DNA of 64,000 nucleotides, taken from the NCBI GenBank assembly GCA_028279245.1, contig JANQOE010000112.1, forward strand, positions 1 through 64,000, given 5' to 3'. The position numbers and the translations under genes are program-made. Positions within the stretch are counted from its first letter, which is position 1; every line of letters begins with the position of its first letter. The notes under the pieces are model-generated. The model made no database searches. It was not told where the DNA came from and saw nothing but the letters and a program-made list of their open reading frames with translations. Of the stretch, positions 58,180 through 63,035 are shown one piece after another. The stretch is from Alphaproteobacteria bacterium. GTDB taxonomy: Bacteria; Pseudomonadota; Alphaproteobacteria; UBA6615.

Positions 58180-58270
58180 GTTCGCGCTATGTTCTCAGCG
58201 GGGCGATGAGTGATGCGAATCGAACAAGCGAAGTATTGTGCTGGCGCTGGAGGAAGTCTCAACATGCGCC

Positions 58271-58684
58271 ATGGCCGATACCCTGAGCCCGAAGGAACGC
58301 AGCGAACGGATGAGTCGCGTTCGGGGTACCAACACCAAGCCCGAGATGACAGTCCGTCGGCTAGTTCACGGGATGGGATATCGGTATCGGCTTCACCGAC
58401 GCGACCTTCCCGGAAAGCCAGACCTGGTGTTTCCGGCTCGCAAGAAGGCAATCCTGGTACACGGATGCTACTGGCACAGACATCCGGATCCGGCATGCCC
58501 ATTTGCTCGGCTGCCGAAGTCCCGCCTGGATTTCTGGCTACCGAAACTCGAAGGCAACCGACGGCGGGACCTACTCAATCAAACAAGGCTCGAGGAACTC
58601 GGTTGGCACACGATGGTCATCTGGGAATGTCAGCTGAAAGACAAAGAAAGGCTAGCGGATCGCATCAAGGCGTTTCTCGATTAG
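58271..58684 (+). CDS. vsr: Very short patch repair endonuclease
   Basis: The protein has 137 residues from the ATG at 58271, chosen because Vsr proteins start with an 'MADTLSPKERSERMSRVRG'-like segment. 'GKPDLVFPARKKAILVHGCYWHRHPD' (split here as 'GKPDLVFP' and 'VHGCYWHRHPD') contains the catalytic Asp and His residues. 'FWLPKLEGNRRRD' is also conserved. Vsr nicks T:G mismatches made by deamination of 5-methylcytosine. It accompanies C5-methyltransferases, here overlapping the next gene by 58 bases as in dcm-vsr pairs. Confidence 0.93.
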   Translation: MADTLSPKERSERMSRVRGTNTKPEMTVRRLVHGMGYRYRLHRRDLPGKPDLVFPARKKAILVHGCYWHRHPDPACPFARLPKSRLDFWLPKLEGNRRRDLLNQTRLEELGWHTMVIWECQLKDKERLADRIKAFLD

Positions 58685-59871
58685 TCCGGTCAGTCGAGCT
58701 ATTCGTCGGAGCCGGCGGTTTAGGCATCGGCGCATGCCGAGCGGGCTGTGTGCCGATGGCGGTCGTGGACTGGAACAAGTGGGCCTGCGATACAATCCGT
58801 CGAAACGCCGAACGGGGACTCGCCCCATTCAGCCACTGGCCCCTGTTTCAAGAGGACGTTAGGGGGTTCAATTACGATTACGTCAGTGGCCCAATTGATA
58901 TCGTAACAGGTGGCCCACCGTGCCAGCCGTTCTCGCTGGGTGGAAAACATGCAAGTCATCTCGACGAACGAGACATGTTCCCAGAAGCAATACGAGCGGT
59001 CCGTGAGTTGCAGCCGAGGGCCTTCGTATTTGAGAACGTCAAAGGGTTGGCACGCAGTTCATTTGCCACTTATCATAAGTACGTCTGTCTTCAGCTTCGG
59101 TACCCACAGCTCACAAGAAGAACGGATGAGGCCTGGCAAGATCATCTTGCTCGCCTGGAGAATCATCGAGAACATGGCAAAGAGACAGGTTTGGAGTATC
59201 GCCTCCGTTCAGCTGTCTTGAACGCCGCCAACTTCGGCGTCCCACAAAAGAGAGAACGAATCTTCTTCGTAGGCTTCCGCACCGACACAGGCATTGCGCC
59301 AAAGCCAATCGGGGAAACTCACTCACGAGACGCGCTGGCCTGGAGCCAATGGCGTTCCAGTGAGTATTGGGACCTGTACGAGGTTAGCAGTCGCGATCGG
59401 CCCACCGACGATCGAGCAAGAGCACGTGCGCTTCGGCTTACTGACAAGCCACAAGAACGCCCCTGGCGCACGGTTAGAGAAGCTGTTCTGGGACTACCTG
59501 ACCCCGAGCGATCCCCTTTCGCCGCAAAAGCATTCCACGACCATCGTTTTCAGCCCGGCGCTCGGTCGTATCCCGGACATACGGGAAGCCCGTTGGATGA
59601 ACCGGCGAAGACCCTCAAAGCTGGAGTACACGGCGTACCTGGAGGAGAAAACATGTTGCGCCGCCCTGACGGTTCGGTACGCTATTTCACGATTCGCGAG
59701 AGTGCGCGTCTCCAGACGTTTCCGGACGAGATGGTATTCGATGGCAGCTGGACCGAGATAATGCGACAGCTCGGAAACGCGGTTCCGGCGCACCTAGCCG
59801 ATGTTGTTGTTGGACACACGATCAACGAGCTCTGCGCGGCACACGTTTCCCCTCAGCCAAAAGCTGCCTAA
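58627..59871 (+). CDS. DNA (cytosine-5)-methyltransferase, type II
   Basis: The start is set at the in-frame ATG 58627, giving 414 residues; the longer track ORF overlaps vsr in another frame and is rejected. C5-MTase motifs run in order: I 'SVELFVGAGGLGIG', IV 'GGPPCQPFS' (catalytic Cys near residue 99), VI 'FENVKGLA', VIII 'QKRERIFFVG' and X 'GNAVPAHLA'. The target-recognition region lies between VIII and IX. The gene converges with an Eco29kI-like endonuclease gene, 16 bases away. The target site is not proven. Confidence 0.94.
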   Translation: MSAERQRKASGSHQGVSRLVRSVELFVGAGGLGIGACRAGCVPMAVVDWNKWACDTIRRNAERGLAPFSHWPLFQEDVRGFNYDYVSGPIDIVTGGPPCQPFSLGGKHASHLDERDMFPEAIRAVRELQPRAFVFENVKGLARSSFATYHKYVCLQLRYPQLTRRTDEAWQDHLARLENHREHGKETGLEYRLRSAVLNAANFGVPQKRERIFFVGFRTDTGIAPKPIGETHSRDALAWSQWRSSEYWDLYEVSSRDRPTDDRARARALRLTDKPQERPWRTVREAVLGLPDPERSPFAAKAFHDHRFQPGARSYPGHTGSPLDEPAKTLKAGVHGVPGGENMLRRPDGSVRYFTIRESARLQTFPDEMVFDGSWTEIMRQLGNAVPAHLADVVVGHTINELCAAHVSPQPKAA

Positions 59872-59887
59872 GGAACGATCCCGAGAG

Positions 59888-60574
59888 TCAGACAAAGCGC
59901 ATGACACGACGAAACATCTTTTGAAGCTTAGGATCTTCAGGCTCATTTTGGAGTTCCGAAACCCGGTCCAAGATTAGTCGCTCAGCTTCGGCCGCTCGCC
60001 TGCTTGAACCAGCCGGACGCCCGCCCCTTCCCGGATGAAGGGAATCCCAGAGCGCAGGCTCACCAGCCATACGATTTCTTCCGACAGGGTTACTCCCAAG
60101 ACTCATTCCATTCCAAGGAGGTCGAAACACCCGGATCATCACTGATTCAGCAAGGGATATATATGCATCGTTGAGAACGAGATACCTACACCTGAAGTCG
60201 GAGAGCACCAGGTTGGCGGCCTGCTCAATTGACGAGGCGTGCTTTCGAATTCTCTGAAGCAGCTTCCGCTTACCACTCACCTTGGGGCTAAATCCCTGTT
60301 TCGAGCTCTCCCCTGCTGCCTTACCGATATAGACCGGGTACTTGCAATGTCCCCCATCAAGCGACACGAGCGATTGATAGGCCGGATGTCCACCCAAGTA
60401 GTACAACGCGTACACCCCCGCGCCCGGAAACGCTGAGGTCGGAGGCACCTGATGGATGCTCTGTTCCAACAGTTCCACCGCAAGAGTCACACCTACGTTC
60501 TCAACCGCAAGTGGGTCAAACGCCTCATCATCTTCACCGCGGGGTCGCGAAGCGAGCTCCGACCTTTTCACCAT
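59888..60574 (-). CDS. Eco29kI-like GIY-YIG type II restriction endonuclease
   Basis: The protein has 228 residues from the ATG at 60574. A GTG just before it is an alternative. The GIY-YIG motif reads 'GVYALYYLG' ... 'YPVYIGKA', with Tyr55 and Tyr82 27 residues apart. 'RIRKH' gives Arg108 and His112, 'LAESVMIRVF' gives Glu143 and 'PPWNG' gives Asn155. From memory, these spacings match the active-site set of Eco29kI, which cuts CCGCGG. With the convergent C5-methyltransferase and vsr this makes a complete restriction-modification cassette. The exact cognate site here is an inference. Confidence 0.82.
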   Translation of the reverse strand: MVKRSELASRPRGEDDEAFDPLAVENVGVTLAVELLEQSIHQVPPTSAFPGAGVYALYYLGGHPAYQSLVSLDGGHCKYPVYIGKAAGESSKQGFSPKVSGKRKLLQRIRKHASSIEQAANLVLSDFRCRYLVLNDAYISLAESVMIRVFRPPWNGMSLGSNPVGRNRMAGEPALWDSLHPGRGGRPAGSSRRAAEAERLILDRVSELQNEPEDPKLQKMFRRVMRFV

Positions 60575-60685
60575 CACCGGTCTCTAATGCCAACCAAACG
60601 AGACAATGCTCTGCTAGAAGAACGGATTGCGCAACTAACAATTGTACCGCCAAAGCCACCCATCTCCCACGTTGGATTGATGCCC

Positions 60686-61050
60686 ATGCAAAACCCCGAC
60701 ACCCACTTCATGCAGCAAGCCATCGCCCAGGCCCACAAGAGTGCCGGCGAGGGCGGCGTGCCGGTCGGTGCGTGCCTCGCCCATGACGGCGCCATCATCG
60801 CCGTCGGTCATAAGTCTCTCACCGACCCAAGGTGTCGGTGGTCTCCCATCGACCCGAAGGTGTCGAGGAGGACGGCTGCCTCCGCCAGGCCGGGTTGTTC
60901 GGCCGCTGGGCGGAGACCACGCTCTACACGACCCTCAGCCCCTGCATGATGTGTGCGGGCACCATCGTCCAGTTCCGCATCCCCCGCGTCGTCATCGGCG
61001 ACGCCACCAACTTGGGCGGCAAGGAAGGAACAGATCACAACTATAAGTAG
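60686..61050 (+). pseudogene. Broken cytosine deaminase (FCY1/CodA-like zinc deaminase fold), copy 1
   Basis: The first part reads MQNPDTHFMQQAIAQAHKSAGEGGVPVGACLAHDGAIIAVGH in one frame. The second part, in another frame, contains 'ETTLYTTLSPCMMCAGTIV', the PCxxC zinc motif. The stretch between them, where homologues carry the H[AG]E motif with the proton-shuttling Glu and one zinc ligand, is replaced by two REP-like hairpins that also shift the frame. The C-terminus is also short. The product cannot be an active deaminase. The start lies divergently next to the restriction enzyme gene. Confidence 0.82.
60820..60866. repeat. Two REP-like hairpins inside deaminase remnant 1
   Basis: CACCGAC-CCAAGGT-GTCGGTG (60820-60840) and TCGAC-CCGAAGGT-GTCGA (60849-60866) share an AGGT-type loop and different complementary stems. 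A hairpin of the same design (CTCGTGGAC-CCAAGGT-GTCCACGAG) lies at 62399-62423 within a larger palindromic element. Confidence 0.7.
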
Positions 61051-61053
61051 CGA

Positions 61054-61152
61054 GTTATACGCACAATTTGTTACAAAGCGTATAACCAGACATAAAACAT
61101 TGAAACCAAAACGAAAGACAGGTTATACATCTCATCTCTATACAAGCGTATA
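61054..61152. promoter_or_regulatory. Two equally spaced GTTATAC/GCGTATA dyads upstream of the nucleotidyltransferase
   Basis: GTTATACGC (61054-61062) and GCGTATAAC (61078-61086) are a perfect 9-base inverted repeat. A second, weaker dyad has GTTATAC at 61122-61128 and GCGTATA at 61146-61152. In both, the half-sites start exactly 24 bases apart, and the dyads are 68 bases apart. The second dyad ends five bases before the ATG, where a ribosome site would be. This looks like a duplicated operator. The region is markedly AT-rich. Confidence 0.65.
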
Positions 61153-61157
61153 TCAAC

Positions 61158-62165
61158 ATGCCAGCCACAAAGCCAGCCAAGCTGCCCCTTGCCATCAGCA
61201 CGCTTTACGCCGAGTTGCTTGATCTCAGCGAAGATGACTATCTGCTCGGTTATGCTGCGGGCAGCTACGTCTCCAAGAACATAAAGGGAAAGGCGTACTG
61301 GTATTACCAGCAAACCGTCGGCAAAGAACGGCAGCAGAAATACCTCGGGCCCGAGACACCGGAACTGCTTGACGAGATCAAAAGTCGCAAAAGCAAACAA
61401 ATGGACCGACGCAAAGAGTTAAGCCGGCGAAAGGAGATCTGTCAGGCACTCACCGCCGGCGCCCGCATCCGCATGGATTCGACAACCGCAAGAATTCTGA
61501 AGGCACTCGCCGAGGCCGGTGCCTACGCGGCCGGCGCGGTCCTCATCGGCAGTCATGCCTACGGGATCTACCCTGCCATGCTCGGCCGCAAGTTTTCCGC
61601 CGCCAACCTTAGAACAGGAGATGTCGATTTCGCCGCCATCCACATCGCCGTCAGTGAACCGGTTTCCTTTGCCGAGGTCATCACGACGGCCGAAAAGAAC
61701 ATGCTGCTGGTGCCGCCGGCCCCGCACGCCAAGATCTCGACCAAGCTGAAGATGCGCGGCGCGGATTATCGGATCGAACTACTCACCCCCGCCCACGGCA
61801 ACCAGAAGAAACCCATCGTCCTGAACAACCTGAAGTTTGGCGCGCAGCCGCTGCCATATCTCGATTTTCTGATCGAAGACCCGGTTGATGCCGTTGCACC
61901 CGTCGACGTGGGGATCAGAGTCAAGGTCCCGGCGCCTGAGAAATACGCGCTGCACAAGCTAATCGTCGCGCAAGCGCGCGAGACAAGCCAATTCGCCAAG
62001 CGCGAGAAAGATCTCGCACAAGCAATGGAGCTTCTGTCTATTCTTCAAACGGATCTTCCTGCGGAACTCTCGCAGGCATGGGACAACCTCGTCGACCGCG
62101 GCCCAGACTATTCAGCAAAGGCAATAACATCTCTCGACCAACTAGGCATTGCCCCGCCGACCTGA
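61158..62165 (+). CDS. GSU2403-type nucleotidyltransferase-fold protein
   Basis: The protein has 335 residues. The N-terminal 90 or so residues contain 'YWYYQQTVGKERQQKYLGPE', as in the GSU2403 family. A nucleotidyltransferase core follows: 'VLIGSHAYGIYPAMLG' then 'RTGDVDFAAIHIA', giving the GS...DxD metal site. The later part ('PAPEKYALHKLIVAQARE') resembles that of other MNT-fold proteins such as AbiEii. Its substrate is unknown and no partner gene is visible. No good ribosome site is seen. The gene is flanked by two deaminase remnants. Confidence 0.75.
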   Translation: MPATKPAKLPLAISTLYAELLDLSEDDYLLGYAAGSYVSKNIKGKAYWYYQQTVGKERQQKYLGPETPELLDEIKSRKSKQMDRRKELSRRKEICQALTAGARIRMDSTTARILKALAEAGAYAAGAVLIGSHAYGIYPAMLGRKFSAANLRTGDVDFAAIHIAVSEPVSFAEVITTAEKNMLLVPPAPHAKISTKLKMRGADYRIELLTPAHGNQKKPIVLNNLKFGAQPLPYLDFLIEDPVDAVAPVDVGIRVKVPAPEKYALHKLIVAQARETSQFAKREKDLAQAMELLSILQTDLPAELSQAWDNLVDRGPDYSAKAITSLDQLGIAPPT

Positions 62166-62186
62166 CGCCTTCGGAAGTCACCGTAT

Positions 62187-62320
62187 ATGCAAAACACCGA
62201 CACCCACTTCATGCAGCAGGCCATCCCCAGGCCAAAAAGAGCGCCGGGGAGGGCGGCGTTCCGGTCGGTGCATGCCTCGCCCATGACGGCGCCGTCATCG
62301 CCGTCGGTCATAAGTCTCTC
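62187..62320 (+). pseudogene. Cytosine deaminase remnant, copy 2 (5' end only)
   Basis: This stretch matches 60686-60820 with about ten differences by eye over 134-135 bases, including a one-base deletion near 'gccatccccagg' that breaks the frame. It ends at the same junction as copy 1 (GGTCATAAGTCTCTC) and runs into a related hairpin, GCGGAC-CTGAGGT-GTTCGC (62321-62339). No deaminase 3' part follows. Confidence 0.8.
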
Positions 62321-62384
62321 GCGGACCTGAGGTGTTCGCCCGGATGCTGGAACGGCGACATCGGCCTCTAGCCCCGCCCCTCCT

Positions 62385-62519
62385 CGTCATTGCGGTCTCT
62401 CGTGGACCCAAGGTGTCCACGAGGACAGGCGGCAATCCATCCCTGATCGTCAACGCAAGCGCAAACCGCGCCGTCGAGAGCTGGATCGCCACGGCGCGCT
62501 AGCGCACCTCGCGATGACG
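62385..62519. repeat. Composite REP-pair (BIME-like) element
   Basis: The ends CGTCATTGCG (62385-62394) and CGCGATGACG (62510-62519) are inverted with one mismatch. GGCAATCCAT (62431-62440) and CTGGATCGCC (62481-62490) are also roughly inverted. Inside the left unit is the perfect hairpin CTCGTGGAC-CCAAGGT-GTCCACGAG (62399-62423), and inside the right unit the palindrome GCGCTAGCGC (62496-62505). Two head-to-head palindromic units are the design of REP pairs. The remainder of the gap from 62166 to 62714 holds the deaminase remnant and about 195 bases (62520-62714) in which I see nothing supportable. Confidence 0.72.
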
Positions 62520-62714
62520 CCCTAAGAACACATCGCCAATGTCTGTGTCAGAACAGGGTCCCTTTGTATGGGGTCTTTCTTTGCTTTCTGTCTGGCTCCA
62601 TCAGCCGGCAAGACATAGAATTGATATCAGTCAAATCGCCAGCGACGCGCCCGGATCACACTTCCGCATCAGAAATGATCTGGGGAGGGCTCCTCGCGGG
62701 CATCACGAAACGAC

Positions 62715-63035
62715 ATGGCCACCAAATCCCTAAACCGGTTCTGGCGTCGGCTTAGCGATTCATTGATCACCCAAGTGCCGGACGACATCGCATTGTGCGA
62801 GTACGACTGCCGGAAACGGCAGTGCAAGACTGGCGAGTGGTCGACATGCGAACGCCGGCTGAAGCTGCTGCAAAAAAGCCTCGGAGGACACCAGCAACCA
62901 AAGTACCTAGCCGAGCGTTACCCCGGCGCGATCATCAACCGCTGCGGCCTGTTACATCCGCCCTGGCGGCGCAAATCTGTCCTCGGCCAGCTTCACCCCC
63001 GCGTCGGTCAGCCGCTTGCGCAGGCTTTCGTCTAG
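62715..63035 (+). CDS. Small Cys-rich hypothetical protein (possibly truncated or misread at its 3' end)
   Basis: The ORF has 106 residues. The N-terminal 60 look protein-like: 'MATKSLNRFWRRLSDSLITQ' followed by 'CEYDCRKRQCKTGEW' and 'CERRL', with four Cys residues that could bind metal. The last part overlaps the end of the minus-strand PhyH gene by 84 bases and reads like a shadow, so the original gene may have lost its 3' end. I do not recognise a function, and the ribosome site is weak. Confidence 0.4.
   Translation: MATKSLNRFWRRLSDSLITQVPDDIALCEYDCRKRQCKTGEWSTCERRLKLLQKSLGGHQQPKYLAERYPGAIINRCGLLHPPWRRKSVLGQLHPRVGQPLAQAFV

Follow-up and report, generated by a model that had tools for sequence, protein, structure and literature searches.

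Deaminase gene remnants bracket an orphan nucleotidyltransferase gene: a possible insertion with long target duplication

Insertion accompanied by a long duplication of the target has been described for restriction-modification genes, where it was seen by comparison of strains (Nobusato et al. 2000, Gene 259:99-108; via PMC3031569 and PMC1643837). According to these accounts, no transposase is involved, the direct target copies are long and variable in length, and one side restores the target gene. AbiE and Rv2827c represent another type of system, in which a nucleotidyltransferase gene is placed under tandem inverted repeats that are bound by a separate antitoxin (PMC7319586). Two further points of reference are the yeast cytosine deaminase FCY1 and the palindromic elements found in coding genes, as in Rickettsia.

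Here, we describe a stretch of 64,000 nucleotides from an alphaproteobacterium (referred to as the window), in which an orphan nucleotidyltransferase (NT) gene is enclosed by two remnants of a deaminase gene. As far as the restriction-modification cases are covered by the above sources, this locus shares with them the missing transposase, the long direct copies and the one side that restores the target gene. It differs in that the gene concerned is an orphan nucleotidyltransferase and in that no empty site was found for comparison. Our best explanation, in which we place middling confidence, is that a probably self-regulated single-gene unit that spreads in this way inserted into an FCY1-like deaminase gene, probably already broken by a hairpin, and thereby duplicated a long piece of its target.

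Deaminase remnants on both sides of the nucleotidyltransferase gene

The features of the locus are as follows:

60686-60813, plus strand: copy 1, 5' part of the deaminase comprising codons 1-43 (MQNPDTHF...AVGHK), aligned with positions 7-50 of a profile of 22 intact deaminases; PF00383
60814-60876, plus strand: copy 1, pair of tandem hairpin units replacing the catalytic HGE segment; the same hairpin family occurs elsewhere in the genome
60877-61026, plus strand: copy 1, deaminase middle (CLRQAG...PCMMC...GGKE), frame-shifted and with its 3' end cut; identified by the deaminase profile and the intact relative L064
61027-62186, plus strand: bracketed unit, consisting of the putative operator region, the NT gene and 21 nt past the NT stop; its limits are the points at which deaminase similarity ends and restarts
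61054-61086, no strand: distal dyad GTTATACGC-N15-GCGTATAAC, perfect
61122-61153, no strand: proximal dyad with the same half-site and 25-nt spacing, less perfect; boxes at -36/-11 from the NT start
61158-62165, plus strand: intact NT gene of the GSU2403 family, 335 aa; PF12281 (E=7e-49)
62187-62313, plus strand: copy 2, 5' part of the deaminase, one base deleted as compared with position 60725 of copy 1; profile and copy alignment
62314-62338, plus strand: degenerate hairpin unit of copy 2; copy alignment
62339-62371, plus strand: copy 2, final deaminase codons PGCWNGDIGL*, aligned with NPDIWNGDIGL* of L064
62385-62520, no strand: larger REP-like repeat with the same hairpin at 62395-62426, beginning ~14 nt past the copy 2 stop

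As originally predicted, the two copies are in direct orientation around the NT gene and about 1.5 kb apart: they occupy 60686-60835 and 62187-62335/6 on the same strand, with a start spacing of 1500-1501 nt. They had been judged by eye to be ~135 bases long and ~93% identical; the copies are real, but this identity is slightly high. The first 42 nt are 93% identical and the following 110 nt 90%; a single BLAST match spanning 150 nt has an identity of 90.7%, and its E value of ~1e-53 excludes chance. The ATG marks the precise onset of similarity, and the 10 nt before it match at only 2/10 positions. As the genome is a draft of 137 contigs, the second copy could in principle reflect an assembly chimera of two strains. 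However, the longest exact run common to both copies is ~26 nt, making k-mer misassembly of one copy unlikely, and the entire block resides inside one 67-kb contig; we consider this explanation highly improbable.

The remnants comprise more than the deaminase 5' ends as which they had initially been taken. Copy 1 resumes behind its hairpins at 60877-61026, and copy 2 carries C-terminal codons at 62339-62371. An intact deaminase, which was to be sought in relatives, was indeed found by searching genome_contigs, albeit in a distant organism (L064, MAG HKST-UBA101; best segment 65% identical). The middle of copy 1 is 85% identical to L064 at the amino acid level over 53 residues, and the match stops at 61026. 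The best solved relatives of L064 are yeast cytosine deaminase structures (E ~1e-25), which links the remnants to the FCY1 type; in contrast to these enzymes, the copies in the window have lost the catalytic HGE, and PCMMC is retained in copy 1 only, where it is frame-shifted. Both copies are pseudogenes. In 1.49 Mb read in six frames, copy 2 has the sole C-terminus of the type W[NHY][GED]DI..stop, and a search for a further copy of the remnant deaminase in this genome found none. Since copy 1 lacks the gene end that is present in copy 2, as seen in the L064 and profile alignments and in the C-terminus scan, the copies are complementary halves of one gene around 61027-62186, i.e. 5' part plus middle, NT gene, and 5' part plus 3' end. 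For both, the break coincides with an edge of the NT unit.

Within the 5' parts, the copies also break at the same base and then enter a hairpin, as had been noted before: the junction GGTCATAA, followed directly by GTCTCTC, is common to both, and beyond it similarity extends through the first hairpin half to ~60835/62336. The hairpin pattern GTCTCTCNNNGACCCNNGGTGTCNNNGAGGAC has four occurrences in this genome at up to three mismatches, versus none in 288 further genomes of the class. Elsewhere in the genome, it forms part of larger REP-like repeats. In having a small hairpin both within a protein-coding gene and within intergenic repeats, the locus resembles REP-like palindromic repeats and the palindromic elements of Rickettsia coding genes, but differs in that the hairpin here destroys the gene and was found in this genome and in 0/288 others. 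REP-like repeats of this family (CGTCATTGCGAGG...CTGGATTGCCACGG...) are present at ~15 places in the genome in addition to 62385-62520, with the inner hairpin swapped between copies.

Because the hairpin interrupts the two copies at an identical base, its entry prior to the duplication, as already proposed, is favoured as the simplest order of events. Some caution is warranted by the 5' parts, which differ by nine substitutions in 129 coding nt (3/0/6 at codon positions 1/2/3) and a one-base deletion. Six of nine changes at third positions and none at second positions hint, weakly with n=9, at coding constraint on the 5' parts, which an ancestor already broken by a hairpin does not predict. 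This observation bears on the main rival of an insertion with long target duplication, namely that two full-length tandem deaminase paralogs decayed and that the NT gene subsequently entered the space between them, at the expense of the first paralog's 3' end and of all spacer sequence preceding the second paralog's start codon. The divergence of 9% with its excess at third positions suggests that coding constraint formerly acted on the two 5' parts, and ordinary duplication and replacement would suffice as a mechanism. However, to account for a hairpin at the same base, this scenario needs descent from a broken ancestor, gene conversion or two site-specific entries; the genome has no other copy of the deaminase; and NT homologs at other loci are likewise bracketed with other genes (see below). 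Decayed tandem paralogs are accordingly a tentative alternative that we regard as rather unlikely.

According to the insertion model, the starting point would be a yeast-FCY1-like cytosine deaminase gene, in which the lineage-specific hairpin repeat had probably caused a break at codon 44 beforehand. A 1.16-kb cassette composed of the paired operator and the GSU2403-family NT gene would have entered this gene, and the target would have been duplicated over an interval that begins at the start codon of the deaminase and ends shortly past the GGKE codons, giving the order left flank, target copy, NT cassette, target copy, rest of gene. The left copy would thereby have lost its 3' end, whereas the right copy would have kept the 3' end of the gene. 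The presence of the 3' end in copy 2 but not in copy 1 is explained in this model by a single step, namely insertion with target duplication. Indeed, a long direct target repeat (150 nt, 91%) is present on both sides of the gene, and the flanks joined through one repeat copy yield an uninterrupted target gene, with only the internal middle absent from the right side. The latter speaks against the model in so far as an extra deletion is needed, which may have occurred later beside the hairpin of copy 2; the third-position bias, hinting that the copies diverged as coding genes, is a second point against it.

The bracketed unit and its paired upstream dyads

The NT gene is the only gene of the 1.16-kb bracketed unit. 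Its product belongs to PF12281 with a score of 167 bits (cut-off 26), and G131, D155 and D157, corresponding to the catalytic G-S/T...DxD motif, are invariant in 29 homologs. PADLOC and NCBIfam provided no name for the protein. Its structure was modelled with a pLDDT of 89, and a fold search of the PDB gave no match at E<=0.001, with weak nucleotidyltransferase matches only. Residues 1-102 (61158-61464) are conserved, lie outside the Pfam domain and are modelled as a helix, a three-stranded sheet and a long helix, with the signature YWYxQ...RYxGP. This part, which has no PDB match, is a candidate for DNA binding.

NT homologs were detected in 27/385 genomes of the class, including the genome of the window, and on 439 plasmids, and scans with the NT protein revealed no close relatives in genome_contigs, viral_contigs or phages. 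No transposase or terminal inverted repeats, as expected for an IS or composite transposon, were found at the ends of the bracketed unit, nor were short target-site duplications. When multiple copies of the unit were sought, as suggested along with the original prediction, no further copy was recovered from this genome.

Upstream of the NT gene, the half-site GTTATACG is present at -104/-79 and -36/-11 from the start, both pairs being 25 nt apart. The perfect dyad has no other occurrence in this genome. Under a strict definition (two dyads, same half-site, equal spacing), two tandem dyads of identical geometry precede the NT gene in 19/29 homologs, and such pairs were absent from the controls (0/29 in-gene windows, 0/29 downstream windows and 0/290 shuffles). 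The half-site varies by clade, taking the forms GTTATACGC, TTATACTCA, ACCCTACA, TACCACAC and TTCAACAA. Most likely, the NT protein binds the two tandem dyads upstream of its own gene, and self-regulation with co-varying specificity is the simplest reading of these sequence patterns. The homologs concerned are drawn from L198-L222 and L013-L015.

This organization is reminiscent of AbiE/Rv2827c-type toxin-antitoxin operons, which likewise have an NT-fold gene and tandem inverted repeats within ~130 nt of its start (PMC7319586). AbiE toxins, however, are DUF1814 proteins accompanied by a separate repeat-binding antitoxin (PMC7319586), whereas here Pfam returned PF12281 only, PADLOC returned nothing, and no conserved neighbour gene, such as an AbiEi-like antitoxin, was present among 34 NT loci; binding of the dyads is putative.

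Brackets around other homologs

Similar brackets surround NT homologs at other loci. In L201, the end of an oxygenase-like upstream gene (...YHELIDDHIEANTGAVFED), stop included, is repeated over 133 nt (86%) from ~3 nt past the NT stop. L208 shows a 57-nt repeat (91%) of an alcohol dehydrogenase gene end (...GKIVARF), again with its stop, that begins directly at the NT stop. On L224, a viral contig, the NT gene is flanked by two fragments of a phage portal gene (253 nt, 81%), which contain the same small palindromic insert; this case weighs less, as the region has other tandem copies. At least two and probably three unrelated NT relatives are bracketed by duplicated neighbour DNA in the manner of the window. 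Direct repeats at L202, L205 and L192 were not counted as brackets, being REP-like, weak or distant. The putative phage contigs L224, L225 and L227 (IMG/VR) have an NT gene between two portal-gene fragments with the small palindromic insert, and one contig carries two copies of this locus ~7.7 kb apart.

Close brackets were found at 3-4/55 NT loci including the window, as compared to 4/703 control ORFs (Fisher p 0.010 and 0.0014), a rate ~10 times that of the controls that rests on few cases. Without the window, which was the starting point, the count is 2-3/54 and suggestive only. Further controls gave 1/67 for deaminase loci and 0/250 for random windows, and a test at the protein level yielded 4/54 NT loci versus 8/681 controls. 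No close direct repeats were found at 21 plasmid NT loci. The window, L201 and L208 resemble one another in their junctions: on the left, the junction is separated from the outer side of the distal dyad by ~25-28 nt, and on the right, it follows the NT stop by 0-21 nt; given these similar positions, the NT unit has fairly constant ends.

These junctions also bear on the idea that template switching or deletion at REP-like hairpins produced a segmental tandem duplication, whose joint captured the NT gene by chance and without any contribution of an NT property. Palindromes are hot spots of deletion and rearrangement, hairpins lie within both copies and right after copy 2, and the bracket copies of L224 share one and the same palindromic insert. 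Hairpins of this kind are, however, absent from the brackets of L201 and L208, where the junctions adjoin the NT unit just as they do in the window, leaving a by-product of hairpins an unlikely origin.

The original prediction had regarded the arrangement as the possible footprint of a mobile unit or of a recombination-built cargo site. It does look like a mobility footprint, because homologous NT genes elsewhere are bracketed in the same way, but the flanks are complementary remnants rather than twin stubs and no transposase was found. Returning to insertion with long target duplication, the NT cassette would be an orphan, probably self-regulated gene that spreads as a single-gene unit, leaving long and variable target duplications. 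What is new in this respect is that NT homologs located at unrelated sites have direct copies of the ends of adjacent genes on both sides (133, 57 and probably 253 nt), which suggests that a single NT gene spreads by an unusual, duplication-making insertion. More speculatively, and in our view rather improbably, GSU2403-family NTs could be one-gene selfish elements that each bind their own clade-specific dyad pair near the left end of their cassette and spread without a transposase, leaving long target duplications, as the stand-alone counterpart of AbiE-like toxin-antitoxin genes.

The NT cassette leaves a common footprint at several unrelated sites and has a fairly constant left end by a co-varying operator; it offers a small system for testing the mechanism by which transposase-less genes move with long target duplication. 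A literature search by accession retrieved no paper on PF12281, and this uncharacterised family gains a concrete hypothesis, namely self-regulation via paired dyads.

Genomic setting

A restriction-modification set (Vsr, C5 methylase and Eco29kI-like endonuclease) is located directly upstream of the deaminase remnants. The fatty-acid (fad) genes at 52.6-58.1 kb have the same order in the genome G024, from which the restriction-modification/deaminase/NT block is missing, indicating that this block is accessory. An empty site, the finding of which had been suggested as a check, did not emerge; the genus was represented by this genome alone, and the synteny with G024 provides no base-level empty site. 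For L208, ~1.4 Mb of a genome of the same genus (G300) were read; the OsmC gene to the right of L208 is present, the upstream neighbour differs, and the region is not syntenic.

Between the REP-like repeat and an opposite-strand PhyH-family gene, a small ORF (CEYDCRKRQCKTGEWSTCERR) without PADLOC or NCBIfam match occupies 62715-63035. At 58210-60577, the Vsr endonuclease frame overlaps the upstream end of the C5-methylase frame and is followed by the convergent Eco29kI-like restriction endonuclease gene.
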